64,000 nt of DNA from Rhizophagus irregularis (Eukaryota; Glomeromycota; Glomeromycetes; Glomerales; Glomeraceae), in NCBI RefSeq assembly GCF_026210795.1, contig NC_089444.1:2594501-2658500 (forward strand). Reading direction: 5' to 3'. The notes beneath the pieces were generated by a model. The model saw only the letters and a list, made by a program, of their open reading frames with translations, searched no databases and was not told where the DNA came from. This document shows positions 4,021 through 64,000 of this stretch, one piece after another; the stretch's first letter is position 1; every line of letters begins with the position of its first letter. The translations under genes and the position numbers were made by a program.

Positions 4021-6599
4021 CTATATTTTAAAAATAAAATAAAATAAAATAAAAAATTGATCTGTTTTATCAAATATCGAGCTTTTACTAGTAAACTCTG
4101 GTATATCGAAACTATTTTAATATACGTGATTTGGTTCCAGCAAAAAAGTCTGGTTTAGCCCCAAATCTGGTTTATCGAAGATTCAGTTTATCGAATTTCA
4201 CTGTGTACCTAGTTTATTTACAATTAAAATGTTTTTTATTAAGTCTTCTAAGAAAATAAACAATCAAAATTTAAAAATTAATGATTATGAAGAATTTGGA
4301 TATGTAATTGGAAAAAAATTATGGGATTCAAGATCAGATATTAACAAAAAAAAATCTTCTTTAAGTTTACCACAAATTATTCAGGAGTATTATGATGCAT
4401 TTCCAAACTTTCTTACTTCATTTTTTTCGGGAATAACTAACAAATTGCAAGAAAAAAAAATGGAAATAAACAATCGTCAGCAAAGAAAATGTCAAAAACC
4501 CACTTTCTACTATAAATAATGAATGAACAATTAAAATTGTAACATTTATTACCTCAATGATAATGGGACTAGCTTTTTCTTCTTTTAAACTTTGGTTGCC
4601 TCAAGTTTTAGCAAGCTTATATCGCAAGCCACGATTACTAAGTTCACTTTATCAATTATTAATATGTCATGTGACATCTCATACAGATCGGCATGAAAGA
4701 AAACTTGCCAATATCCGAATGGAAAAAGCTAATCCAGCAAAATGTCTAATTCAAGAAAATAATATTTGGAATTTAGCAATTATTGACAACATTGATTTTA
4801 AAGAGAAAAGCTTTAAATTTGGAAATATTTATGACGTTACCCGATGAAGTTCTCATGCGATATTAAGAATGGCTTTCCAAGCGCAACTGCCAATAAATAG
4901 AACTGAGCCTGAGGTAGTAGTCGTATTAACAGCAGATACACCATTATTTGGTATGAATTCTAAAATAGACCAAATATTAATAACTTTTCAAGAAATATTC
5001 AAAGAACTATTACATATCAAAAATAATAATGGTGAACTGTCTTACAAAAAAGATTTTGATGCTGAGAGTATTAAAAATATTATACTTTCTAAATTAGGTT
5101 ATGGATGTTTAGGCCCATCTCCTAATATTGTTATCCTTGAACCTGGAATGAATTCAAACTCTGATGAAGAAATTTTACATGCTGCTGAAATGTATAAAAA
5201 AGACTTTAATTTGAAAGATTCTGATTTTCTTGATATTGTGGCTGATGAAGCAATATATCGTCAATTAATTAAAGGTAAAAAAAAAATGGCCTAAGCTAAG
5301 ACCTCATCTAGGTCAATGGCATACCTCAAAAGACTTTGCTCAGTACTTTTAGTTCTATTTTCAAGTTATGGATTATTAAGCTTAGCTTCACGTCTTGGTG
5401 TAAGATTTCTGGATAAATTTGAAATTGCAGTTGATTACCGTTTAACAGCTAGAATTCTGGATCTTTTATGGATTGCTGTAGGAATAGCAATTAATATTTA
5501 CATTACTTCAAAAAATATACCTTTTTCAGCAATCATGGATGGTAAAAATGATACTCACATTTGTCTTAAAGTTTGGTATCTTTATTATAAATGGGCAGGT
5601 ATCTGGAAAGCTCATAGAATGGGAATTCATATAGGAAATTTTAATATTCAAAGAGATTCTTTAGTACCTCTTTTTGCTAGTGCTGCTAAATCTAATTATA
5701 CAACTGCGATTGCTCACTTTCTTTCAAATATAGCTGCTCATCCACAATTAGAGGAAAATCTACATCACGTTGGCTCTTTTAAAATTCCACGTGAAAAAAA
5801 TGAAGAAAATGATCCTTTCTATACTTGTTTTGGATTTGATGAAGCGCTATAGACCTTTGGGGTTAAATATATTAAACAGAATATTACCGGGAATACAATT
5901 GATGAGAAAAATCTCAGAAATCAAATTAAAGCATGCCAGGATGAAAGAGAAAGGATTGATTTACTACTATATGAATACCTAGATACTAAGTTAATAACAC
6001 AGTATTGCATACTGAACAAACTAGTGAATCATGAAGGGAATCACTATAGAATCTTGTAGATGATTTGATAAATGTTTTTGGAATGTCTGATCCTTTATCC
6101 CATAATTTATTTAAGGAATATCCGCCAACAGAATTGCATCATCAAGGAGTTGAATGTCTGATTGCATGTTATGAGAAAGGATTAGAGCGAATTAAAGCAG
6201 TTTATCGACAAGAAGTTCTAGAAATAGAATGCGGAAATGCACGGGGTAGGAGGAAGACAGAAGTAGTCAGAACAAGGGTTAAAGATTCTAATCAAAAAAA
6301 AATCAAAAAATAAGACTGGAATTAAGTCATCCCAACAAGTAAGTGGATCAAGCAACCAGGCGGATAATTTAGAATCACCATACATACCTGAAAGCCAAAA
6401 TAATCCGATAAAAGTGCCAAAGAAAAAGCGTAGTAAACAAACAACTCCAGAAGAAGAAAAAATACTTGAAGAGTTGTTGGTTTATAAAGAAGAACTACCA
6501 GACTCGGCTATTAATGAGATTCTTAGTAGGATTGGAATAAAGCTAAAGTTAAAGCAGCATGGAGGTATCGTAAATCTAAAGTTAGTGAATAATATATAA

Positions 6600-8831: not shown

Positions 8832-9356
8832 AAGAGGTATTGTTTGACTCTTTTATTTACATTTTGTACTTTAGCTAAGTTCATTAGGTACCATTAATGA
8901 TAATTTGCCAGCGAGCTATCAAATGTACGGCACGTAAATTAGACCTCCACATCGCAAATGGACTATTTTAAATAGATTAAATCAGTTATTGGAGAATTTC
9001 CGGCCAAAATATGAAAGCTTTGGGTTTATTCAAGATTCTTCGTTTTTATGCTCTTTTACGGAAAAATAGTATGCAGTTATTGCAGTACAAGTAAAAATAA
9101 TTGTTCATCAGATATTTACACTTTTTTCTTTTTTGTTCAAATTACAAACCAAGTTTTATTTGAAATATTAAAAATTATCTACCACTTAGTGTTTGAACAA
9201 AATTATGATAAATGAAATTATAAAGTCAATATACTATTTAAACATCTATAAGGTATTAATTATTACATTATATTAATTTCAAAATATATCTAAAAATAAT
9301 AAATTAATTAATTATTAGTATAATCATTATTTCAAATTTAATAATACTCATTGCTA

Positions 9357-11004
9357 TTATTTACCGTCAGGAATTTCTAATTCATCTTGCTCTTCTGGAT
9401 GAAGATTCGAGATATGATATAATGCGTCATCATCTACGTATGAAAAGTATGAAAAGAAAAATATAAATTATCATAATATTTTTTTTTCAAAAAAAAAAGT
9501 AAATTTATTAATAATCATACCTTCCATTGCATGAGGTAAATAATCAGAAAGATAAATTCTACTTTCACTTTTATTTATTTTAGAAACCGTTTTCTTCCTT
9601 GATTTAAATGATTGACGAATATTAATATTCTTAAAGAATTTTTTAATTGTATTTTTATTATTAATTTTGTCATTGGATATTTTTTCGAAACGTAAACTTT
9701 TCATTTCTTGCATTTCTTTTAAAAGTATATTAATATCAGGTCTTTTTAATGGATCAGTATTCCAACATCGTTCCATTAAATTTCTATATTCTAAGGGTGT
9801 GCCTGATAATATTTGTGGCCTCATCCCATTAACTATTTTCATCGCAAAATCATAATTATGTTCATAATTAATAAATGGTGGCTGAGAAGAAGAAATTTCC
9901 CACATAAGCATACCAATACTATAAATATCTGACGCAAAACTCTGTTTTTTTTCAGTAATAACCTCGGGTGCCACGTAAGAAAGATTTCCATATATACTCT
10001 TTAATGGTATTTCGGCTGGACCACAAAATCCTAGGTCGCTTATACACCAAATATTTTCAGATTTTAAATATAACATATTCCCTGAATGCAAATCTCTATG
10101 GATTGTATTTTCTTTATGAATTCTATAAAGCGCTATTATTATATCATAAATTATAACAATTCTTTCTTCCCATGTGAGCTTATCGTGATTCTCTTGTAAA
10201 TAACTTCTTAAATCCATGCTCATTGCGTACATTACAAGCATATATTTTTTGTCTTTGATATCTTTGATATCTTGCGTAAGGCCATAACACTTAACAATAT
10301 TTGACCATTTGTTGCTTATAGTTAAATGTGATTTTGCCTAACATCAAAATTATGTTATTACATATAAAAAACTTTACTAGTACTATAACATAATAAATAT
10401 TTAAAATGATTTACTGTACCTCATCAAACCAACTCCTATTAGCATTTTCAATATTTTCTAATGTTTTAAGAATTACTTTATGAGTTCCAAATCTTTTAAG
10501 TTTTCTTTTATTAGAATCCCATTCATTATAACTACCACCAATCCAATTCGCTGTATAAATTTCAGAACAACCACCTTCAGTTAATTTTTTTATATTTTTT
10601 AAATTATTATATGGAATCCATTCAATTATTTTATCCGGTGAAAGTGATTCTATTTGACAATTTTGAATTAAATTATCAATATTATCATTTCCAGATGTCC
10701 ATTCTGAAAATTTAGATTTTAAATTATTTCGAATACAAATTTCACAATATAATGTTGCTAAACATTCCTCTTGACAATTTTCACAAATTCTCCTTGTTCC
10801 TTCATTATAAACAATTTTATAATTATCATAATGTTGATTTATTATTTTGATTGCTTCTTTTTTTTCAGCTTTTGTAAGAGATTTATTATCGTTTATTATT
10901 TTTTTTGCCGATTCACATTGAATTATCGTATTATGAATATTAAAATTTAATATATCATTTGCTCGATCAACTGCGGAAATAATTGATTCTTGTCTAATAG
11001 GCAT
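9357..11004 (-). CDS. Divergent TKL-type protein kinase, three exons, 492 aa
   Basis: Predicted Ser/Thr-type kinase of the family expanded in AM fungi. Exons on the minus strand are 11004-10420, 10337-9521 and 9433-9357; introns have GT..AG ends and the joined frame is a whole number of codons. Residues 74-90 hold a Cys cluster (C74, C77, C81, C87, C90). The W-I-P-Y linker is at 129-132, a glycine-loop variant (TEGGCSEIY) at 142-150, the beta-3 lysine in VILK near 180, HRDLHSGN at 275-282, DLG in place of DFG at 296-298, and APE near 318. All key catalytic residues are present, so activity is plausible; DLG is a mild variant. A basic tail precedes the last exon, which encodes an acidic end DELEIPDGK. 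It is transcribed head to head with the sister kinase at 11702; about 700 bp separate the two starts. ATG 11004 is chosen because the N-terminal region aligns with the sister gene's start. Confidence 0.85.
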
Positions 11005-11701: not shown

Positions 11702-14399
11702 ATGGCTAATATTCGTAAAAAATTAGTTTATGCGGCAATTCAAGAAGCTTTTAGTGAAGCGGATAAGAATCCTAATCTTAATTATCAACAGAAATTATTA
11801 AATGGAATAATTTCTGCTGATAATTCTCTTACAAAAGATGAAAAAGCAGAAACAGCAAGAATAATAACCGAGAGTTATGACTCTTTTAAAATTATTAAGA
11901 ACGAAGGCGAAAAAAGAATTTGTGAAAATTGTCTATGTGAATGTTTAGCCACATTTTATTGTGAAATATGTATTCGAAATTATTTAAAAGCAAGTTTTTC
12001 AAATTGGACATCTGAAAATGATTATGTAGATAATTTAATACAAAATTTTCAAATGGAATCAATTGCTCCAACTAGGATAATTGAATGGATACCATATAAT
12101 AATTTTCAAAATATTAAGTACATAACTAAAGGCGGATGTTCTGAGATTTATAGGGCAAATTGGACTGATGGACCTTATGATGGATGGGATTCTAGAAATC
12201 AACGATTAAAAAGGTTTGGTATGCTTAAAGTAATACTTAAAGAGTTAGAAGATGGTGAAGACGCAAACGTGAGTTGGTTTGATGAGGTAAAGTATAATTT
12301 TTTTTTAAAAGTATTATCGATCATTTAACTTTTACGTAGATTAACATTTTTTTTTCAAAAACCTTCACAGACCAAATCACATTTAATAATGAGTAGCAAA
12401 TCTTCAGGCGTTGTTAAATGTTTTGGTTTATCTAGAAATCCATCAAATGGAAAATATTTGCTTGTATTACAGCAAATGGATAATGACTTAAATAAATATT
12501 TACAACAAAACCATAATCAACTTACATGGAAAGAAAGAATTAACATAATTTGTGATATAATAAAAGCACTTTACGAAATTCATGAAGAGAAAGCGATTCA
12601 TAGAGATTTACATTCCGGGAATATATTATATTTACAAAGTGCAAATTTATGGTGTATTTCTGATCTTGGATTTTGTGGACCTGTTGATCAACCATTATCG
12701 AGCATATATGGAAATCTTCCCTATATAGCACCTGAGGTTGTAATTGAAAAAAAACAGGGTTTTGCGTCAGATATATATAGTATTGCAATGCTCATGTGGG
12801 AAATTTCATCCGGAAAACCACCATTTAATAATTGTGAACATGATTATGTTCTTGCAATGAATATTATTGGAGGTATGAGACCAGAAATTGTACTAGATAC
12901 TCCTTTAGAATATAAGCAGCTAATGGAACAATGTTGGGATGCTGATCCATTAAAGAGACCTGACATAGATCGTCTTTATAATAAAATATTCGAAATAAGA
13001 AATTTATATTATCAAAATGGTTCAAATAAATCATATAATCAACCATTTCACAAGTATAATATTAATTTATACCAGTTTTTTCAGTCAAACAAAAGTAAAA
13101 GTTTTAAAACAGATTATGGAAGCCGACTGATTACAAGTAAATTTTATAACTTTGAACATTTATCATCATTAAAACCTAAAAATGCGACAGAAGGTACTAA
13201 ATCATATTCTTTGTATGAATTGTTATATTTAAAAATTGTGAACTAATTTATAAATTTTTTTGATTCGACCAAAAATAGAGGAACAAAGGGGTATATAATT
13301 TATTATTATAAATGAAAACACAATATAATAAGTAGTAGTTATTGATACATGCATTTATATTAATAGCATTTCATAGTAAACATTATGCTTATAATCTTTC
13401 TGATAGTAGTAAGTATTAAAACGTTCATTTTTTTCATAACGTGATTTTTTTATTAATTTTTATTGAATTTTAGACAATTCAAGTGCATTAAAAATAGAGA
13501 AGTATTTTAAAGGTAATAAATTAATTATGATATAATAATTAGTTTTATCTAAAAGTAATCATTTTTTAAAACTCAATTAGATCTTAGTACAAATTTGATA
13601 AACAAATTTAAAAGTCTAAAGATAAATTCCAAAAAGGGTAAGACATCAATTGTAATTTTATAGAAGAAAATGAAAAATTGTTTATTTGCTTAAATTTAAT
13701 TATTTTGTCTAGATGATAATCGAAATGAAAATGAATTATTACAAGAAACAAATAATAATATTAATACTAACCATTATAACATGAATTCTAACTCAATTAA
13801 TTTATCTGAAACAAAAAGTAAGGTTTTATTCTAATATATATTTAATGAAGCATTAATTAAATTTTATAATTATCACGCTTATTAATAATTATACTTTTTA
13901 CAAACAAATGATAATAGTGGAAGAAGGTATTTATTAAAATATATGATATACTATGTTATTTTATAACTTATTAATTTATATCTTATTTATAGATATAAGT
14001 GCGTATAGTAGCAGTGAATGTAGTAGCCGAGAATTTTCCTTTAACATTTCTGACATTTCTGAAGATAGTAAGTTTTTGTTTGAATGTTTTAATAAATACT
14101 GTATTATTACTGTACTCTATACTGTACGTGTAGTTTTTGATCGATCATTTAATTACTTTAGTTGATAATATCTCGAGTAAAGATTTGGCAGATTCATCAA
14201 GAGCGAGCAGAATAACTACAGGTAATTTATTTTAACAAATATAAACCTATTATATTATATCATCGGATAGTAAAAAATAATCAAAAAAGTATAGAAAATT
14301 TGATGATAGAATATTTTTCTTAATTTAGAGGAAAATGATTATGTAGACATAACTAATTCAGAAGATCAAGATGAGTTGGAAATTCCTGATGGTAAATAA
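11702..14399 (+). CDS. Divergent TKL-type protein kinase with a multi-exon acidic tail, about 607 aa
   Basis: Sister of the 9357-11004 kinase. Exon 1 is 11702-12286 (195 codons, the same length as in the sister) and exon 2 is 12371-13193. They encode the Cys cluster, WIPYNNF linker, glycine loop TKGGCSEIY, beta-3 lysine in VILK, HRDLHSGN, DLG and APE. Exon 2 would read on to 13246, but the GAAG|GTACTA site at 13193 matches the sister's splice site. Seven small exons follow with good splice signals: 13474-13512, 13581-13637, 13713-13817, a 9-nt microexon 13918-13926, 13993-14067, 14162-14221 and 14329-14399. All have phase-1 boundaries and the summed CDS is 1,824 nt, a whole number of codons. 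The last exon ends DELEIPDGK, as in the sister. The tail is Asn/Ser/Glu-rich. The microexon is the least certain part; the frame holds with or without it. Each cassette exon could be skipped without breaking the frame. Confidence 0.8.
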
Positions 14400-17712: not shown

Positions 17713-20700
17713 TCAGATTACTTGATCTAAACATTGAGAATTATAATCATCATCATATTTTGGAAGATCTTCTGTAAAAGGATTAAGTAATCGAGATGTG
17801 TAAATAGCTTGTGGATGGGTATTTATTTGGTAATTTTCAATGGATGTAAGATTTGCTTTTCTATATTCTTCTGCTTCCTTAAATTGCATTTCAATTTCTT
17901 TATTTTCTATACTAAAAAGATTCCCTCCATATGACTTATAAAATGATGTGATTAATTCATCTACCTCAAAAATATTTGGTCTATCATTTTTGTCTAAGTC
18001 CCAACACTTTTTCATTAAACTAATATAACATCTTGGTGCTTCTGACTCATTAAATTCAGGTCTAATTCCTTTGCAAATATCTAATGCAAGACAGTGATCA
18101 TGTGCACGGTCACCAAAAGGTTGTCTTCCAGTAGCTACAAAATACATTATCATACCAAAACTATAGATATCTGCTGCTTGAGTATAAGGTTTTCCTCTTA
18201 ATACTTCAGGAGCCACATAAGGCATAACTCCATAAATTTTTGTTTTATCTATATTACCAACTTCTCCACATAATCCCATATCTGAAACTGATACACAATT
18301 TTAAAATTATTTAAGAACTTTAAAAATAATATATTTCCTGTATGAATATCACAATGAACTGAATTTCTCTGATGAATTTCTTTAAGACCATTAATAATAC
18401 TAATCAATGCAAATAATTTTGTTTCCCAATTAAAATATTCATAGTTTTTATTTATCCAATGATTAAAATTGCCTTTTTTTGCATATTGTAAAACTATAAT
18501 ATATTCTTTTGTATCTGGATTTTGTGATATTCCATATATATTAAGAATATTACTTCTTTTATTTATTGAGTATTCTTTAACCTGTTTAATACATTAATAT
18601 TGAAAAATAATTATTAAATTAAATTTACAGATTAAATCCATAAAAAATTATTATATTATTAATGATTCCTTTAAAGAAATTTCATACCTCATTTAAAAAT
18701 TTATCAGTAATACTTTGGAAATTATGCAAACATTTCAAGGCAATTACTTTATTTGGATCCCTATTATAGATTTTTTTATCTACATCATATTCTAATGGAC
18801 CATCTTTCCATATTGCTGAATATACTGTGGAAAAGCCACCCTCACCTACTGCCTCAATATCACCAAACTGATGATATGGTATCCATTCAAATACTATATC
18901 ATTATAGTCATTTATTTTTAATTGCATTTCTAGAATGAAATTATCAATTTTTTTATTACCAATTGCCCATGCAAGAACTAAAATATAATTATTCGTATCT
19001 GGATTTTGAGATATTCCATATATACCACAAATTGTTCTTCCAAATATTTTTGCTGAATATTTTTTTGTCTAACATACAAATAAAGGAATTAATATATTTT
19101 ACTAAAAATGGTAAAAATATTTAAGAATTATTATACCTTATTTATTAGAAAATCAATAGAATTTTCTGAGGTATGTAAATACTTTAAAGCGACTTCTTTA
19201 TCAAAATCTCTTCTATATTTTTTATTTACATCATATTCTAATGGACCATCTTTCCATATTGCTGAATATACTGTGGAAAAGCCACCTTTACCTATTTTCT
19301 TAACATTACCAAACCGACGATATGGTATCCACTCAAATACTACATCATTTTCATTATTGATTTTTAATTGCATTTCTTGAATGAAATCATCAATTTTTTC
19401 ATTTCCACTTGTCCATGCAAGAACTAAAATATAATTATATGTATTTGGATTTTGAGTAATTCCATAAATATCACAAATTGTTCTTCCAAATATTTTTTTT
19501 TGATATGTTTTAGCCTAATATACAAATAAAGGAATTAATATATTTTACTAAAAATGGCAAAAATATTGAAAATTATTATACCTTATTTATTAGAAAATCA
19601 ATAGAATTTTTTGAGTTATATAAATACTTCAAAGCAACTTCTTTATTTTTTGAATTTCTTGTATAATTACTAAACTTAATATCATAATGCAGTGGACCAT
19701 CCTTCCATATTGCTGAATAACCAACTTTACTTATTTCCCTAATTTTATTAAATTGATTATAAGGAATCCATTCAAATACTTTATCTTCATATTTATTCAT
19801 TTTTAATTGCATTTCTTGAATGAATTCATCAATTTTTTCATTTTCACAAATATGTATATAATTATTTTGAACTACTAAGATATAATCTCTTGTATCTGGA
19901 TTTTGAGATATTCCATACAATGCTTGAAATGCATTTTTATCTGTTGAATATCTTTTAGCCTAAATATAAATAAAAGAAATCGTAAATGAAGTATATTAAT
20001 TAGGAAAAGTATTAAATATTTGAAGAAATTTCATACCTTATTTATTAAAGAATCAACGGATTCTTGTGAATTATGCAAACATTTTAAAGCAACTTCTTTA
20101 TTTGATTTTCTTATATAATCATAACCATCAAAAAACTTGTATAATGGACCATCCTTCCATATTGCTGAATATACTGTTACAAAGCCATTTTTATCTGTTT
20201 CTTTAATTTTAATAAACTGGTTGTATGGTATCCATTCAAGCACTATATCATTATATTTATAAATTTTTAATTGTCTTTCCTGAATAAAGTTGTCAATTTT
20301 TTCACTTCCACTCGCCCAGGTAAGAACTAAAATATAGTTATTTGTTTTTGGATTTTGAGATATTCCACATATGTTACAAATTACTCTATTAAAGTTCTTT
20401 GTTGAATATTTTTTAGCCTACATATAAGCAAAAGAGTAAATTTATTATACTAAAAGTGTTAAGAATATTTATTAAAATATTATACCTCATTTATTAGAAA
20501 ATCAACATAATTGTGTGAGTCAGGTAAATATTTTAAGGCAACTTTTTTATTTGAATCTCTCATATATTTTTTATTTTGTTTATTCCAATATATTGGGCCA
20601 TTCTTCCATATTGCCGAATGTACTGTTATAGAATTATTTTGGTCTATTGCTTTGATTTTATTAAATTGATTGTATGGTATCCATTCAAATACTACATCAT

Positions 20701-21291
20701 TTTTATTATTGATTTTTAATTGCATTTCCTGAATGAAGTTATTAATTTTTTCATATCCACTTGCCCATGCGAGAACCAAAATATAATTATTTGTTTTTGG
20801 ATTTTGAGATATTCCATATATATCACAAATTACTCTATCAAAGATTTTTGTTGAATATTTTTTAGCCTAAATATAAACAAATGAGTAAATTTATTATACT
20901 TAAAGTGTTAAGAATATTTATTAAAATATTATACCTCGTTTATTAGAAAATCAACAGAATTTTGTGACCTATGTAAATATTTTAAGGCAACATTTTTATT
21001 TGAATCCCTTGTATAATACTCACTCCACATATTCTTTTTACATAATGGACCATCCTTCCATATTGATGAATACACTGTTATAGGATCATTTTTGCCTGTC
21101 TTTTTGATTTTATTAAATTGTTTATATGGTATCCATTCAAATACTATATCATTTTCATTATTGATGATTTTTAATTGCATTTCCTGAATGAAGTTATCAA
21201 TTTTTTCATTTCCACTGGTCCAATTTGTAAAATTGTTTTTTAAATATTCCAGAATGTTAGGTATCATTAAAGGTTTTTTTTTGAAGACCAT
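17713..21291 (-). CDS. Kinase gene with six tandem N-lobe exons and one C-lobe exon, about 1,040 aa; frameshift in C-lobe
   Basis: Minus-strand exons: 21291-20935 (first, start at M-V-F-K-K; an upstream in-frame ATG is at 21366), then five homologous phase-0 exons 20866-20486, 20417-20037, 19959-19582, 19514-19137 and 19068-18688 (378 or 381 nt each), then the C-lobe exon 18581-17713. The repeat period is 445-455 bp including introns. Each repeated exon encodes the end of helix C, beta-4/beta-5 (YGISQNP..NYILV), a linker, the WIPY motif and beta-1 to helix C (SAIWKDGP, VALK). The product would carry six N-lobes in a row before a single C-lobe with HCD in place of HRD, DMG in place of DFG, and APE. 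The C-lobe exon is 869 nt, one base short of frame, and the break lies near 18297-18305, so this copy may be inactive. Final residues match the C-terminus of the gene at 62271. Confidence 0.75.
18688..20866 (-). repeat. Tandem array of five intron-flanked N-lobe exons, about 449-bp period
   Basis: Exon starts are spaced 449, 445, 455, 449 and 449 bp apart (18688, 19137, 19582, 20037, 20486, 20935), with the intervening introns also alike. The beta-3 lysine (VALK or IALK) is kept in every unit. The glycine loop is good only in the two 3'-most units (EGGFSTVY, KGGFSTVY), lacks several residues in the 19582 unit, and has lost glycines in the three 5' units. The residue just before the donor, expected to be the helix-C glutamate, is Glu in the 18688, 20486 and 20935 units and Lys in the other three. 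Confidence 0.85.
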
Positions 21292-21876: not shown

Positions 21877-22555
21877 CATCCCTTTTTTGTGTGCCAGGTT
21901 CGTGGCGCAGCTAGCAGATTGTGACTTCCCTAGCGTAACCTGAAAAAAATGTCACGAAATGGCCGGCATTACGCAACTTGACTAAAATTAAGTGTGGCGC
22001 ACATGTGACGAATAATGTGTGACGAATAAGTTTTTACCTACTCGAAAAAAACTGTCCCTCAGATACTTATAGAAAATGGAAGCGCAGTGGGGTGTGACGG
22101 TTGTGACAAAAAAATGTCACGTGATTTTTCGTGACATTTTTTTCAGGTTACGCTGGGAAAGTCGCAGATTGTGGCGCAACAAAAATCATAAAGAAAAAAC
22201 TTTTTTTTAACATATAGCTACAAAATTACTAGATAGTTGTAATTTTAGCTGCATCTTCAAGTTTACTTAGAGCGACAAAGGCGATTTTAAATATCATTAT
22301 TGACTTATTTAACAAAAATTTTTCTTTCACGAAATCCATTTTGGAAATGATCGACGAAGACGGTAGAATCAATCATTTATATGTAAAGTCAAAATCGGCA
22401 TTCATAACCTTCTTCCGAATCCTAATTAAACTTGCAAAGCAGGTGAAATTACATCTACAATATAAATTCAAAAAACTTTATGTCGAAGAAAAAATCCTTA
22501 ATGATGTTTTTAAATAAGTTTCTACGCCACGACCTGGCACACAAAAAAAGGGTGC
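21877..22555. mobile_element. Non-autonomous inverted-repeat element with a second element nested inside
   Basis: The outer arms are 21877-21907 (CCCTTTTTTGTGTGCCAGGT then TCGTGGCG) and 22524-22555, nearly exact reverse complements over about 30 bp. Inside lies an inner pair: 21931-21957 (TAGCGTAACCTGAAAAAAAT...) and 22129-22155. No coding region of note. A target duplication was not settled; TTAAT occurs close to both outer ends but is short and AT-rich. Confidence 0.6.
21930..22156. mobile_element. Inner MITE-like element (about 227 bp)
   Basis: Terminal inverted repeats AGCGTAACCTGAAAAAAATG (left, from 21932) and the reverse complement ending at about 22154 match over about 25 bp. The interior has several further GTGAC/GTCAC copies, including GTCACGTGAT near 22117-22126. 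It is probably a separate insertion inside the outer element. Confidence 0.55.
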
Positions 22556-34642: not shown

Positions 34643-36230
34643 AAAAAAGTAGAAAAAAAGTAGTTTTATATATTGTATTTAAGATGTATTTAAGTTGTAT
34701 TTTTTTTCAAAAAAAAAAAAGAAAAAGTATTTTAGGTGTAATTTTAGTTGTTTTTCTTAAAAAAAAAAAAAGTATTTAACGAAAAAGAAAAAAAAAATCA
34801 TTCAAAAATGTAATTTATTTATTTATTTTTTTTTTCATTTATTTATTTATTCATATTTTTTATCATACTTTTTAATTTTTTCAACTTTATTTGGACATTT
34901 TTCTTTAATGATGTATTTTTAGTTAGATTCTTTTTTTTTTTTTTCTTATCTGTTATTGTTATCATTTATATTTTTTATTATTATTCTCTCCACTCAATTC
35001 TCAAACCCATTCATTTCTTTATATATCATTTTCATTATCCTTTCATTAATATCTTCTTTTTTTTTATTATTATTATTATTATCTCAAGTATAATTTTTAC
35101 ATACAGAATCTTTGTACCATTTAATTAATTTTTTTTTTCCAACATTCCCCCCTTCTTTGTTTCTTTCAAAGTCTCTTTTTTTCATCATATTTTTATTATT
35201 GTACAATTTCACATTTTCATGTCATTTATTTAAAAAAATCAAAAAAGAAAAAAAAGAAAAATTTTTTGAAAAGAACATTAATGACTTTTGACTCTTGAAT
35301 ATTTGTTTTTTTTCATTGTCTTTTAAATTACAGTAGAATTTTTAATTATGAATTATTTACATCATGGGCTACTGTAACTCGATATAACAAATGATTTACC
35401 TTAAAACTAGACGAAAAAGATTAATGTTTACAATTTATACTAATTAACGATATGGGGAACAACTACCTGATGATACAGAAGACGCGTTAGTAAATGAAGT
35501 AGTAGAATTAAATCTAAAGAAAAAAATATCATTCGGACTAAATTAGTGGACATATAACAAATGATTATGAGTAAATAATTAGTCAAAAAAAGGATAGAAA
35601 TTGAAAATTCAGAAAAACTAATGGAAATAGACAACGAACCTAAACACCAATATAAAGTTGGATCGTATCATATATGTATATATATATTTTTTTTAAACGT
35701 ATAAATAGATCACTTTTATTTTGTATTCTTGAATTATATCCGTAATCAGTCCAATAATTTTTCATATCTTTTTCGCGACGAGTACATTCTAGGCTTTCTC
35801 CTTATCATCCTATTGTAATAACGTTTTAAATTAATAAATATGTAAACCTAAAAGGAATTTATTCGCAATATATAAATGATATATACTCACGAAATTTTTC
35901 TGTATTTTTCTTTTTTTATTTTCGATTTTCCTTTTCTGGTTCTTTGCTTGGTTCTTCGTATACGTTTTTTAAAATTTCCGGACTTTTCCATAGTTCGTTC
36001 ACGTGTTTTGAATCAGCCTATTGAAATAATTGAATATTAGTATCATGTTGATATAATAAAAAAAAGTATTAGTTCAATATGATCAGTGAGTGAAGAGGAA
36101 ATTTATTGACTTAAGGAAGATACATAACCGAATTCTCATTCAGATTTAGTTGACCTTTACAATAAATTTCACTTTCCAACTCATAATCACATGACTAAAA
36201 TGGTTTCCTGCTTGGCTGCTTAAATCCGAT
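34643..36230. other. Downstream non-coding region rich in T and A runs
   Basis: Contains the 3' UTR of the Sec7-PH gene and long poly-T/poly-A and TTTA-type runs. A possible short coding remnant at about 35450-35640 on the plus strand (acidic, DTEDALVNEVVELN) could be a transposase tail, but this is too weak to name. Confidence 0.45.
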
Positions 36231-36237
36231 TGAAAAA

Positions 36238-37340
36238 CCTCACTAAGGCGCAGTCAGTGAGGGAGGAATAAACAGGACATCAGGTAATGAGAAGTACTTC
36301 AATTTTCAGACAAAAAAGGGCTTCCTTATTTTTACTGTTTATCCAATTCAAAAACCAACCTCACTAAGGCGCAGTCAGCAAGGGAGGAATAAACAGGACA
36401 TCAGGTAATGAGAAGTACTTCAATTTTCAGACAAAAAAGGGCTTCCTTATTTTTACTGTTTATCCAATTCAAAAACCTCACTAAGGCGCAGTCAGCAAGG
36501 GAGGAATAAACAGGACATAAGGACATTTGAGAAAGTAACCCATACCATTCAAGTAGAGCTTAGATCCGGATTATCCGTTGATATTCACTGAATATGTCCG
36601 TTCAAAGATTATAAATCCGGATATCCGGATATCAATTCTAAATATTAATCCGGATGGTAAAATCCGGATATTCATAGGATATTCATTGAGTTATTTTTAA
36701 ATTTTATTCGTATCCTGATTATGGCCACCAGATTCTAAAAAGCTGAATTATTGTTGTTATTTCGTCATCTATATTTTGACATTTATCAAAATCTAGGTAA
36801 TTCTCAATATTACTATCTACTGTACTTCTATTATATTACAGTAGACATCCTGTTTCTTTAAGCTAGTATTTTTTTTTTTTGAAATAACTCTAGACTACTT
36901 ATTCAGATGGGAACGTTAATTAAACTAATCTCTCCAAAAAAATACATATGGGATTAATATTAAGTAATATTCCATTGTTAAAATTTTATTACATCATGTT
37001 TACATTATATTTACATCATATTTACATTATATCCTAAGATATCCGGATTATATTCAGTGAATATCCTATTTTCTTAAGCAAAATCCGGATATCCTATCTA
37101 AAAGTGAACGGATATATCCGTAATCCTAGGATATTCACTGAATAACCCATTAGGATCATTCACCGGATCTAAGCTCTACATTCAAGAAAAATGGTTTCCT
37201 GCTCGGCTGCTTAAATCCGATTGAAAAACCTCACTAAGGCGCAGTCAGAGAGGGAGGTAAAAAGCAGGACGTCAGGTAATGAGAAGTACTAGCTCATACG
37301 ATCCAAATTTAAAAACCTCACTAAGGCGTAGTCAGAGAGG
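36238..37340. repeat. About 120-bp tandem repeat, five copies, interrupted by a MITE
   Basis: The core CACTAAGGCGCAGTCAG occurs at 36241, 36362, 36479, 37232 and (with one change, GCGTAG) 37319. The first three copies are spaced 121 and 117 bp and share AGGAATAAACAGGACATCAG and a following segment. The last two copies are shorter. Copies three and four are separated by the inserted element at 36554-37178. The flanking phrase ATGGTTTCCTGC is present before the first copy and again just after the insertion. Confidence 0.85.
36546..37186. mobile_element. hAT-type MITE, 625 bp, 8-bp target duplication
   Basis: The element spans 36554-37178. Terminal inverted repeats TAGAGCTTAGATCCGG (36554-36569) and CCGGATCTAAGCTCTA (37163-37178) are exact reverse complements over 16 bp. 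The flanks are an exact 8-bp direct repeat CATTCAAG (36546-36553 and 37179-37186), the length typical of hAT elements. Subterminal ATCCGGAT and GATATTCACTGAATA words are repeated in both orientations. No coding region, so it is non-autonomous. Confidence 0.92.
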
Positions 37341-53019: not shown

Positions 53020-53400
53020 TGAACTAAAGATAATTTCCTGTATCTGGATTTTGAGATATTCCATACAATACAAATGATGCATCTTTATCATCTATTAAAA
53101 TACCTTTTAGTCTAAATATCAACAATAAAAGTGGATTTTAAATATATATATTAATTAAAAAAAATATTTAAATATTTAAAGAAATTTCACACTTCATTGA
53201 TTAAAGAATCAATAGATTTTTGTAAATTATGTTAAAGCAACTTCTTTATTTGAATCTCTTGCATAATTTACATAATTTACATCCTGCCAATGCTTCACAT
53301 CATCACATGTAATGGACCATCCTTCCATATTGCTGAATATGCTGTTATAAGGCCATTTTTACCTATCTCTTTAATTTCATTAAACTGATTGTATGAAGCA
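53020..53400 (-). pseudogene. Decayed kinase N-lobe exon fragments
   Basis: The minus strand carries KEIGKNGLITAYSAIWKDGP and SIDSLINE (about 53400-53190), then a decayed intron, then LYGISQNPDTGNY (about 53080-53035). These are the two halves seen in the tandem exons at 18688-20866. Frames are broken. Confidence 0.75.
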
Positions 53401-53511
53401 ATATATTATGAATGAATTCACACTTTTCAATGTTACATAATTCAAATTATTTATACAGGGCAATATAAATATGACAATTTTTTTAATTAGATAGATTTAT
53501 GATATTTTTTT

Positions 53512-53625
53512 TATTTAGGCTAAAAAATATCCAATATTGTATGGAATATCTCAAAATCCATATACAGGAGATTATATTTTAGTTCTTATATGGACAAGTG
53601 GAAATGAAAAATTGGTTCTTGCGTC
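53512..53625 (+). pseudogene. Kinase N-lobe exon fragment, opposite orientation
   Basis: After an intact acceptor (TTTAG at about 53520) it reads AKKYPILYGISQNPYTGDYI and WTSGNEK, the 5' half of the same tandem exon, then stops matching abruptly at about 53614. It lies head to head with the minus-strand fragment 120 bp away. Confidence 0.75.
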
Positions 53626-54754: not shown

Positions 54755-56077
54755 CTAACAATTGTAATGATGATAGTCATCTAGTTTATCAAATTTATCA
54801 AATTTATCATTTTTTTCTGGCCTTATATATCCTGCGGCATTATACAATTCAACACCTTTAGTTTCATTTGCTTCAGTTCCTATTCCAAGTCGATAACAAT
54901 GCCCAAGTCGAATTATTGAGTTAGTATCACCTTTTTCAGCTGCTTCTTTATATAATTCAAATGCTTTAACTTCATTCTTCTCAGTACCTATTCCATTTTC
55001 ATAACAATTTCCAAGACGATTTATTGAATCAAGATCTCCTTTAATAGTAGCTGATTTTTCATATATTTCAAATGCTTTAATCTTATTTTCCTCTGTTCCT
55101 ATTCCATTGTAATAACATTCCGCAAGATTGTACATTGAATCAATATGACCACGCTCAGCGGCCTGTTTATATAATTCAAATGCTTTGATTTCATTTTTTT
55201 CAATTCCCATTCCGCGAAGATAGCAACATCCAAGATCATAGGTTGAAATAATATGACCCTTTCGAGCTGCTTTTTTATAAAGCTCAACTGCTCTACTTTC
55301 ATTTTCTTCAGTACCTATTCCATTATAGTAACATTCTCCAAGGTTATATATTGAATCAACATGGCCACGCTTAGCGGCCAGTTTATATGATTCAAACGCT
55401 TTAACTACATTTTTTTCAGTTCCTATTCCATATTGGTAACAATATCCAAGATTATACATTGAGCTAACATGATTTTTGTCAGATGCTTTTTTATATAATT
55501 TAAATGCTTTAATTTCATTTTTCTCAGTTCCTATTCCATAATGATAACAACATCCGAGATTATATATTGAATCAATATGATTATTTTTTGCTTCTCTCTT
55601 AAATGATTTAAACGATTGAATCTCAATTTTTTCGGTCTTTATTTCATTTTGATAACAAATTTCTGATTTTCTTCCATCATCGCTATCATCTATTTCATCT
55701 ATTTGCATGTTTGTCACATTTTTATTTGGCAATTTGACGGTTGGGCAAAGATGTTGAAAAAACTGGATTATTACTGGATTGTTTACAAAAGGAAGGAGAA
55801 CTTCAGATGATGATAACTTTTTTGTTACTAAAGATTCAAGAGAACTTTGTTCTTTTTCACTCATATGAAAACTATTGTTATCAGTTATTGATATAGTATT
55901 TTGCTGTTTCGCATTATTTGGTGCTTTTGAGCACTTCGTGTTGACATGAGCTTGCATTCGTTCAGGAACGCCTCGTTGAAAATCTTTTGAACAGTAATTG
56001 CATCGTACATGAGGATGAGAATTGTAATCTTTACTTACTATAGTAAAATGGTTCCAAACTTCTCCTTTCTTTCTCAT
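54755..56077 (-). CDS. BED zinc finger/hAT N-terminus fused to seven Sel1-like repeats, 440 aa
   Basis: Single intact ORF. Residues 7-52 form a BED finger (VWNHFT..., C26-x2-C29, then H44 and C49). Residues 88-118 (SSSEVLLPFVNNPVIIQFFQ...LP) resemble the region after the BED finger in hAT transposases. From about residue 165 to 415 there are seven Sel1-type repeats of 36 residues (YNLGCCYHYGIGTEKNEIKA and variants, with A/L/Y/G at conserved positions). The C-terminus has a short FDKFDKLDD repeat. No hAT catalytic core is present. Sel1 repeats act as protein-interaction scaffolds and BED fingers bind DNA, so a captured transposase DNA-binding region joined to a scaffold is the simplest reading. 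ATG 56077 starts the BED domain in the usual position. Confidence 0.88.
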   Translation of the reverse strand: MRKKGEVWNHFTIVSKDYNSHPHVRCNYCSKDFQRGVPERMQAHVNTKCSKAPNNAKQQNTISITDNNSFHMSEKEQSSLESLVTKKLSSSEVLLPFVNNPVIIQFFQHLCPTVKLPNKNVTNMQIDEIDDSDDGRKSEICYQNEIKTEKIEIQSFKSFKREAKNNHIDSIYNLGCCYHYGIGTEKNEIKAFKLYKKASDKNHVSSMYNLGYCYQYGIGTEKNVVKAFESYKLAAKRGHVDSIYNLGECYYNGIGTEENESRAVELYKKAARKGHIISTYDLGCCYLRGMGIEKNEIKAFELYKQAAERGHIDSMYNLAECYYNGIGTEENKIKAFEIYEKSATIKGDLDSINRLGNCYENGIGTEKNEVKAFELYKEAAEKGDTNSIIRLGHCYRLGIGTEANETKGVELYNAAGYIRPEKNDKFDKFDKLDDYHHYNC

Positions 56078-62270: not shown

Positions 62271-64000
62271 TTAGATTACACAATCTAAACATTCAGAATT
62301 AAGATCTTTTGTAAAAGGGTTAAGTAAACGAGATGTATAAATAGCCTGTGAATGAATAGCTGCTTGGTAATTTTTAATAGATGAAATACTTGCTTTTCTA
62401 TATTCTTCTGCTTTTTTGAATTGCATTTCAATTTCTTCATTCTCCACAATGTAGAAATCCACTCCAGATGACTTATAAAATGATGTGATTAAATTATTTA
62501 CTTCAAAAATATTTGGTCTATTGTTTGGGTCTGAATCCCAACACTTTTTCATTAAATTAATATAACATCTTGGTGCTTCTGGTTCATATATTTCAGGTCT
62601 AACTCCTTTACAAATATCTAATGCTAGATGATGGTCATGTGCACAATTGTGAAAAGGTTGTTGTCCAGTTGCTACAAAATACATTATCATTCCAAAGCTA
62701 TAGATATCTGCCGCTTGAGTATAAAGCTTTCCTTTTAATACTTCAGGAGCCACGTAAGGCATAACTCCATAAATATTCATTTCATCTTTATTACCAACTT
62801 CTCTATATAATCCTATGTCTGAAATTGATATATAATTCATATTGAAATCTATTATATCACTTAAAAATAATATATTTCCTGTGTGAAAATCATGATGAAC
62901 CATATTTTTCTGATGAATTTCTTTAAGACCACAAATAATGTTATCCAATACAGATAATTTTGCTTGCCAATCAAAATATTCATAATTTTTATTTATCCAA
63001 TTATTAAGATTTCCTTTTTTAGCATATTTGAGAACTATAATATATTCTTTTGTGTCAGGATTTTGAGATATTCCATAAATATTAAGAATATTACTTCTTT
63101 TGTTTATTGAAAACTTTTTGATCTATTAAAATATTTAAATAAAAAAAAATAATTTAAATATATTATTATTACTTTTGTATAAAAATAAAATTTTCTATTA
63201 AAATGATTTTTAAAAATTACATACCTTATTTAAGAATTCATTGCTAATATTTTGTGAATTATGTAAACATTTTAGGGCAATTACTATATTTGGATTCCTT
63301 TCATGTATTTCTTTAACTTTATCATATTCTAATAGACCATCTTTCCATTTTGCTGAATATACTGTAGTAAATCCACCTTTACCTATTTCCTTAATATTAT
63401 TAAACTGATTGTATGGTATCCATTCAAATACCATATCATCATAGTCATTTATTTTTAATTGCATTTCTTGAATAAAATCATCAACTATTTCATTTCCACT
63501 CAAACAATTTACTAAGTTCATTAAATTATTTTGAACCAAAATATAATCATTCGTATTTGGATTTTGAGATATTCCATACAATATAGGGGATGGCCATATT
63601 TTGTTGAATATTTTTTAGCCTAATAAATAATAGAAAAATTAACACATTTATATATATTATTAAAAGGTAGTACAAATATTTATAAGAAATTTTATACCTC
63701 ATTTATTAGGAAATCAATAGAATTTTCTGAATTATGTAAACATTTTAAAGCAACTACTTGTCTATATGCATCTCTATAATAATTTCGATGATAATATTCA
63801 TGGTATTTTAGTTTTAGTGGACCGTCATACCATACTGCTGAGTATACTGTCGTAAGGTTATTTTTGCTTGCTTCTTTAATATAATCAAATTTATCATATG
63901 GTATCCATTCAAATACTACATCCTCATCGGTATTTATTTTTAATTGCATTTCTTGAACGAAATCATCTATTTTTTTATTTCCACTTACCCAAGTAAAATT
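62271..64000 (-). CDS. Second kinase with repeated N-lobe exons, 5' part beyond the window edge
   Basis: Minus-strand exons: (beyond 64000)-63698, 63619-63225 and the C-lobe exon 63122-62271. The C-lobe exon is intact (284 codons with stop): YGISQNPDTKEYIIVL, HHDFHTGN in place of HRDxxxxN, DIG in place of DFG, VMPYVAPEV, DIYSFGMIMYF, and a tail ending NPFTKDLNSECLDCVI. Two N-lobe exons are visible, each with WIPY, SAKWKDG or SAVWYDGP and the VALK or IALK lysine. The 63225-63619 exon is 395 nt, one base short of the 396 expected, and its frame breaks between the acceptor and the YGISQNP motif, near 63575-63595. The visible end at 64000 reads NFTWVSGNKK, similar to the first exon of the 17713 gene, so few exons may lie outside. 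Loss of the HRD Arg is common in this sub-family; activity is uncertain. Confidence 0.75.

Follow-up and report, generated by a model that had tools for sequence, protein, structure and literature searches.

Tandem arrays of kinase N-lobe exons in front of a single predicted kinase domain in Rhizophagus irregularis

What would a kinase gene encode if its small lobe were written six times in a row and its large lobe only once? The question is raised by a gene on the minus strand of a 64,000-nucleotide stretch of the Rhizophagus irregularis genome (C16:2594501-2658500, hereafter the window), in which a first exon (E1) is followed by five homologous phase-0 exons (R1 to R5) and by sequence for a kinase C-lobe (Table 1). 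Such a series, with exons of 378 or 381 nt and a period of about 449 bp, had been described in the original prediction, and we located it together with its GT-AG introns; Tandem Repeats Finder reports a period of 449 and 5.4 copies at 18793-21216. Each repeat exon of the window is preceded by AG, followed by GT, and ends with the codon for the helix-C Glu position (...NE or ...NK). Its content is ordered as β4 and β5, a linker that contains the motif SGNEKIDNFIQEMQL, sometimes in variant form, and then β1 to helix C. The β4 and β5 strands of each N-lobe are thus supplied by the start of the next exon, as had been proposed, and the anatomy of R1 to R5 and of the C-lobe exon matches this arrangement. 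If joined, the window exons would therefore encode six N-lobes, each completed by the beginning of the following exon. The six exons are dissimilar, with Lys at the helix-C position in R2 to R4, a shortened loop in R3 and GGF in R4 and R5. The predicted protein starts with MVFKKKP, and E1 combines a non-canonical glycine loop (GKND) with a helix-C Glu. Of the six small lobes and one large lobe that had been envisaged, the six N-lobe exons are present; an intact single C-lobe is not found for this copy, owing to a frame break.

The N-lobe array is not unique to the window locus. Three protein searches of the genome (146,748,485 bases, 32 contigs) were evaluated for the best 150 places each, of 4,524 to 4,829 candidates, and at least 147 of the best 150 matches of each search were free of stops. 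Forty-one regions were fetched because of their many matches, and hence are not a random sample; 40 of these and the window were scanned with a profile, three or more hits being called an array. The scan yielded 38 arrays, which are distributed over 15 contigs and of which 21 lie on C16. An array holds 5 to 36 N-lobes (median 10, arrays cut by a region border being counted). The largest array found, at C20:1705715-1722374, has 36. Among the matches listed there are 25 further places with one to four units, one of which, locus L041, was fetched. Splice sites are almost invariably present: the donor is GT in 366 of 367 full-length repeat exons, the acceptor is AG in 359 of the 361 tested, and the two units that deviate at the acceptor are in fact first exons that had been called full units. 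Intron lengths are spread evenly over the three classes modulo 3 (113/117/123) and the exons measure 336 to 435 nt (361 units), a pattern that fits splicing and not read-through. Because the same exon type is matched at no fewer than 150 genome places per search, and because long open frames are unexpected under neutrality, the exon pattern at the window is, judged from sequence, beyond chance.

Several further array sequences were seen in and around the window. A second array occupies window 62988-64000 (minus strand) and extends past the right edge to C16:2660420, with six N-lobes and an intact C-lobe, and a third lies directly to the left of the window, at C16:2589709-2592509. Short fragments of repeat units on both strands at window 53027-53614 are probably remnants of a decayed array. 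The stretch of C16 from 2.4 to 4.7 Mb holds 21 of the 38 arrays and may be an array hotspot, in a set of regions that were picked by hand and form no census.

Within the arrays, N-lobe units are of two kinds. The unit preceding the C-lobe carries a GGF loop in all 32 arrays for which the fetched DNA contains the start of a C-lobe; these are the 27 tabulated units and those of arrays a4, a18, a22, a27 and a28, the a18 and a27 units being frame-broken. Among the other full-length units called internal, Gly occupies the loop position in 1 of 343, and this one is R4 of the window. The denominator derives from 345 units called internal, at least three of which are really first exons; three of the 345 have Gly, and two of those (in a4 and a1) are terminal units. 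None of 26 first exons has the canonical loop Gly. The units called internal have Asn at the second loop Gly in 311 of 345 cases (90%), the β3 Lys in 330 (96%) and the helix-C Glu in 301 (87%), and the 27 tabulated terminal units have the Lys in all and the Glu in 26. As Lys and Glu are kept and the glycine loop is changed, the repeat units seem to have preserved the N-lobe fold and altered its handling of nucleotide. On a tree of units from which the loop columns were left out, the Gly/non-Gly state changes twice and the labels first, internal and terminal change 27 times, the first exons not forming one clade. We read this as an early split into two N-lobe types, both of which were inherited by most arrays. 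In general, only one position of an array would then be fit for catalysis.

This distinction bears on how the exons are used. It is conceivable that each messenger RNA (mRNA) picks one or a few repeat exons, or a variable number of them. Any subset would remain in frame, since every repeat exon is in phase 0-0 and has a length divisible by 3, and the β2/β3 stretch is highly variable among units, which also speaks for such a choice. However, the catalytic loop is found regularly at one position only, so that the exons are not equivalent and the other units cannot be taken as interchangeable catalytic N-lobes; the suggestion that the exons might be exchanged to give one kinase with different N-lobes is not supported by this pattern. 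The introns between repeat exons are also of an ordinary, short kind (median 73 nt, n = 302), and for short introns in fungi the inclusion of every exon is the default. Selective use of the exons is thus unlikely.

We consider it probable instead that the arrays belong to a large TKL-like kinase family in which a fused exon was amplified in tandem and is spliced into a chain of many N-lobes followed by one kinase. Spliced in order, an array would give one polypeptide with 5 to 36 complete N-lobes, each spanning an exon junction, and then one complete kinase domain; all exons would be joined in the mRNA. A protein with multiple N-lobes was the other possibility raised at the outset, and it is favored by the AG/GT-bounded exons, by leading first exons with a Met, and by a GGF loop that occurs regularly only beside the C-lobe. 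A recognised first exon leads 26 of the 38 arrays. Of these first exons, 25 have an in-frame Met upstream, 19 begin M[F/S][S/P]Q and nine have AAAACA before the ATG. Six of the 12 arrays with no called first exon start within 150 bases of a region border. First-exon-like text is found in arrays a0, a1, a22 and a27, and a3 has only a partial first unit; for a9, none was seen in the 1,052 bases upstream. Locus L041 joins two N-lobes at the genomic level: at positions 1501-2277 two units lie in one frame of 259 codons, which has lost both the intron and the first part of the following exon. This loss is imprecise, and an origin through cDNA is thus not proven. Helix-C similarity tracks β4 and β5 of the next exon (0.29) more closely than those of its own exon (0.14). 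We set this covariation aside and do not count it as support, because DNA distance alone could yield it, neighbouring segments of the same exon reaching about 0.3.

The terminal domain has the marks of a protein kinase. One terminal N-lobe joined to its C-lobe matches the Pfam family PK_Tyr_Ser-Thr (6.2e-34). The terminal units carry the GxG loop, the Lys of VAxK and the helix-C Glu at the counts given above, and a C-lobe with HxD and DxG motifs is intact in 23 of 27 readable arrays. The best match of the joined terminal kinase in the PDB is ROCO4, and most of the domain can also be aligned with BRAF, RIPK1 and CTR1; the CAMK-type kinases STK17B and CaMK1 score about as well as these tyrosine kinase-like (TKL) proteins. 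The array kinases are here called TKL-like. Pfam assigned no kinase family to the repeat exons tested, to E1 of the window, to R5 taken singly, to the frame at L041 or to a repeat N-lobe in joined form. When 289 joined repeat N-lobes were compared with the 27 catalytic ones using hhalign, β1 to β5 were aligned with a probability of 100% and 51% identity. When the repeat exon by itself was searched as a profile against the PDB there were no hits, which its shifted register would lead one to expect. The repeat profile had no relatives in bacterial/archaeal and viral contig collections, a result that is uninformative on other arbuscular mycorrhizal fungi.

The C-lobe is a single exon in the other arrays. 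Among the 32 arrays with a C-lobe start, this exon is open for 275-320 codons in 23 (one of which is still open where the region ends, at 284), and open but cut sooner by a region border in five. Intact C-lobes are thus found in 23 of the 27 arrays in which the exon is readable completely or almost completely.

Are the repeats maintained as protein-coding sequence? A stop, shift or truncation was counted in only 19 of 425 units, so that about 95% are open, and tblastn recognised no remnants in the 12 inter-unit gaps of 151-378 nt, whose length also leaves no room for a C-lobe of some 250 codons. In a neutral simulation with 0.1 substitution per site per lineage, 6% of units stay stop-free, which bears out the earlier remark that open frames are unexpected for neutral tandem debris. 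The ratio of non-synonymous to synonymous divergence (dN/dS), estimated by the Nei-Gojobori method (NG86), has a median of 0.51 within arrays, with 95% of pairs below 1 (1,905 of 1,953 pairs, dS above 0.05). It is 0.51 between arrays (5,734 sampled pairs) and 0.42 for terminal units (231 pairs), and the neutral simulation gives medians of 0.88-0.93.

Several observations count against a maintained chain that ends in one kinase. In the youngest pairs (dS below 0.1), dN is close to dS (0.057 and 0.061); dN amounts to 0.69-0.82 of intron divergence in all bins; and intron divergence, at 0.175, is lower than dS, at 0.263. For these reasons protein constraint, as measured on the sequences, is real but modest, and new repeat copies seem to drift or diversify. 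Four C-lobe exons are broken (4 of 27 readable), that of the window included, where the first part (18249-18593) and the second (17713-18300) are read in different frames; given the single exon elsewhere, either the window copy has suffered damage or an indel was introduced in the assembly. Arrays L016 (C7:3660401-3663178) and L039 (C5:5185401-5187736) reach a stop soon after β5, and no C-lobe was found in the 1,330 and 1,706 bases of DNA at hand downstream; array a1 ends in a GGF unit, and again no C-lobe was found downstream. The separation of the two unit kinds is blurred in a second class of arrays, marked by a Cys-rich linker; in six of these a partial unit stands next to last, and its loop is GKG[N/H]F five times and DKSHF once. 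Structure prediction did not help either. The AlphaFold2 model of the L041 frame is poor (mean predicted local distance difference test score, pLDDT, 58) and does not form helix C, although most blocks of the junction-spanning N-lobe score 70-78, and a single repeat exon reaches a pLDDT of 46; neither model was used as evidence. Foldseek found no match of the L041 model in the PDB at E 0.001. At E 10 there were 609 matches, the first kinase among the rows listed being JAK3 at rank 32 (E 1.2).

Part of this evidence would also suit an amplification with little function, in which unequal crossing-over multiplied the exon and the frames are still open through relaxed selection or recent age, or in which the units are a store of variants for gene conversion. 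The nearest relative of 203 of 345 internal units lies inside the same array, most commonly as the direct neighbor (70 of 203), so that arrays still seem to grow; the near equality of dN and dS in young pairs, the 19 broken units and the arrays that lack a C-lobe point the same way. Against it stand the proportion of open frames, the almost complete set of splice sites and the overall dN/dS of about 0.5, together with the conservation of the non-canonical loop Asn and of the Lys in arrays spread over 15 contigs. We judge this account improbable. An assembly artefact is very improbable indeed: repeats of this size are prone to mis-assembly, and the assembly is apparently the Nanopore-based, Illumina-polished one of PMC10234402, but the 38 arrays lie on 15 contigs and have mutually different units, and read coverage is uniform according to that report.

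How could a poly-N-lobe kinase gene have arisen? Two other kinases in the window, at 9300-10760 (minus strand) and 11901-13100 (plus strand), are of the same type and in opposite orientation, each with a single N-lobe and a Cys-containing start. Their N-lobe is split in phase 0 right after the helix-C Glu, which is the same junction as in the arrays. The exon anatomy suggests that recombination in a two-exon kinase gene of this kind may have placed the 5' portion of exon 2 directly before the 3' portion of exon 1, fusing the two. The fused exon has the acceptor of exon 2 and the donor of exon 1, in frame, and could thus be multiplied with no harm to frame or splicing. The array would represent a simple route from a two-exon gene to an endlessly repeatable exon.

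What the chain might do can be proposed more tentatively. The upstream N-lobes would fold as stand-alone, non-catalytic modules. N-lobes form dimer surfaces in BRAF and KSR, which led us to propose a multivalent dock or decoy for other kinases of the genome. The chain might then serve for tandem binding and regulation; most likely, other kinases of the same very large family would dock on it through N-lobe and helix-C surfaces and would be presented to, or kept from, the single catalytic domain. We regard it as plausible, and no firmer than that, that the half-kinase N-lobe is a stand-alone tandem module, present in up to 36 copies before one kinase, that proteins of this kind form a new class of repeat protein, and that the module docks or diverts the fungus's thousands of related kinases through its surfaces and not by catalysis.

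The gene kind is that of a protein kinase gene, and the half-domain repeat is apparently new. To our knowledge, kinase N-lobes do not occur as repeated modules in the absence of C-lobes. Relative to TKL kinases such as ROCO4, BRAF, RIPK1 and CTR1, the terminal N-lobe and C-lobe look ordinary, with the main catalytic residues present in most arrays, whereas the arrays put extra, non-canonical N-lobes in front, for 5-36 N-lobes in all. Tandem kinase-pseudokinase proteins, such as the JAK kinases with JH2-JH1 and the plant WTK proteins, have a non-catalytic kinase-derived part before a catalytic one. The arrays share this order within the same predicted chain, but their non-catalytic part is an N-lobe only, which lacks a C-lobe and is repeated many times; such proteins comprise at least two two-lobed domains, and here no C-lobe stands between units, their spacing being one short intron. 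Dscam-like genes contain mutually exclusive tandem exon cassettes, and human tandem duplicated exon substitutions reportedly work in the same way. Homologous exons in tandem within one gene are common to these genes and the arrays. Cassettes of that type are equivalent, however, while in the arrays the GGF loop is held by the terminal exon and one fixed position is of the catalytic type. Titin, spectrin and the like are repeat proteins grown by exon duplication, and what characterises them at the gene level, phase-symmetric homologous exons in tandem with working splice sites, is present in the arrays. They differ in that the array repeat is half an enzyme domain, its register circularly shifted relative to the exon.

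The kinase repertoire of R. irregularis is reported to have 2,533 members (PMC10234402). Kinase expansion is well documented, and expanded families at times lie in tandem arrays of duplicate genes, according to PMC8647823, PMC6123716 and PMC10234402. A literature search that included passages of these three sources, and in which subscription journals mostly fell outside, found no description of an N-lobe exon array. Pfam did not recognise the repeat exons tested, which may explain how the array went unnoticed; profile-based annotation would probably enter such a gene as a single kinase and overlook the array. If the arrays are translated, half a kinase domain can serve as a building block, and the huge kinase expansion of arbuscular mycorrhizal fungi gains a testable design, in which numerous non-catalytic lobes for docking are connected to a single catalytic domain.

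Table 1. Predicted exons and introns of the array gene, in window coordinates.
Feature	Position	Strand	Description
First exon E1	20935..21291	-	ATG at 21291; short leader, linker helix, β1 to helix C of N-lobe 1
Intron E1-R1	20867..20934	-	68 nt, GT-AG
Repeat exon R1	20486..20866	-	381 nt, phase 0-0; loop DQNN; Lys and Glu retained
Intron R1-R2	20418..20485	-	68 nt, GT-AG
Repeat exon R2	20037..20417	-	381 nt, phase 0-0; loop DKNG; Lys retained, helix-C Glu to Lys
Intron R2-R3	19960..20036	-	77 nt, GT-AG
Repeat exon R3	19582..19959	-	378 nt, phase 0-0; glycine loop shortened; Lys retained, helix-C Glu to Lys
Intron R3-R4	19515..19581	-	67 nt, GT-AG
Repeat exon R4	19137..19514	-	378 nt, phase 0-0; canonical GKGGF loop, helix-C Glu to Lys
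Intron R4-R5	19069..19136	-	68 nt, GT-AG
Terminal repeat exon R5	18688..19068	-	381 nt; catalytic-type N-lobe with GEGGF loop, IALK Lys and helix-C Glu (LNE)
Intron R5-C-lobe exon	18582..18687	-	106 nt, GT-AG
C-lobe exon, first frame	18249..18581	-	β4/β5 and catalytic loop HCDIHTGN; frame breaks afterwards
C-lobe continuation, other frame	17713..18300	-	SDMGLC, APEVL, conserved C-terminal tail

Three other repeats were noted in the window. An inverted repeat just upstream of the array gene, at about 21930-22165, was identified by eye; its arms are CGTAACCTGAAAAAAATGTCACG and the reverse complement, and it is possibly a small transposon-like element. At 36224-36522 there is a 121-bp tandem repeat with 2.5 copies and 93% matches. 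A tandem repeat with a period of 108 and 6.8 copies occupies 54840-55658, and this period equals the length of a 36-residue repeat of the Sel1/TPR type.

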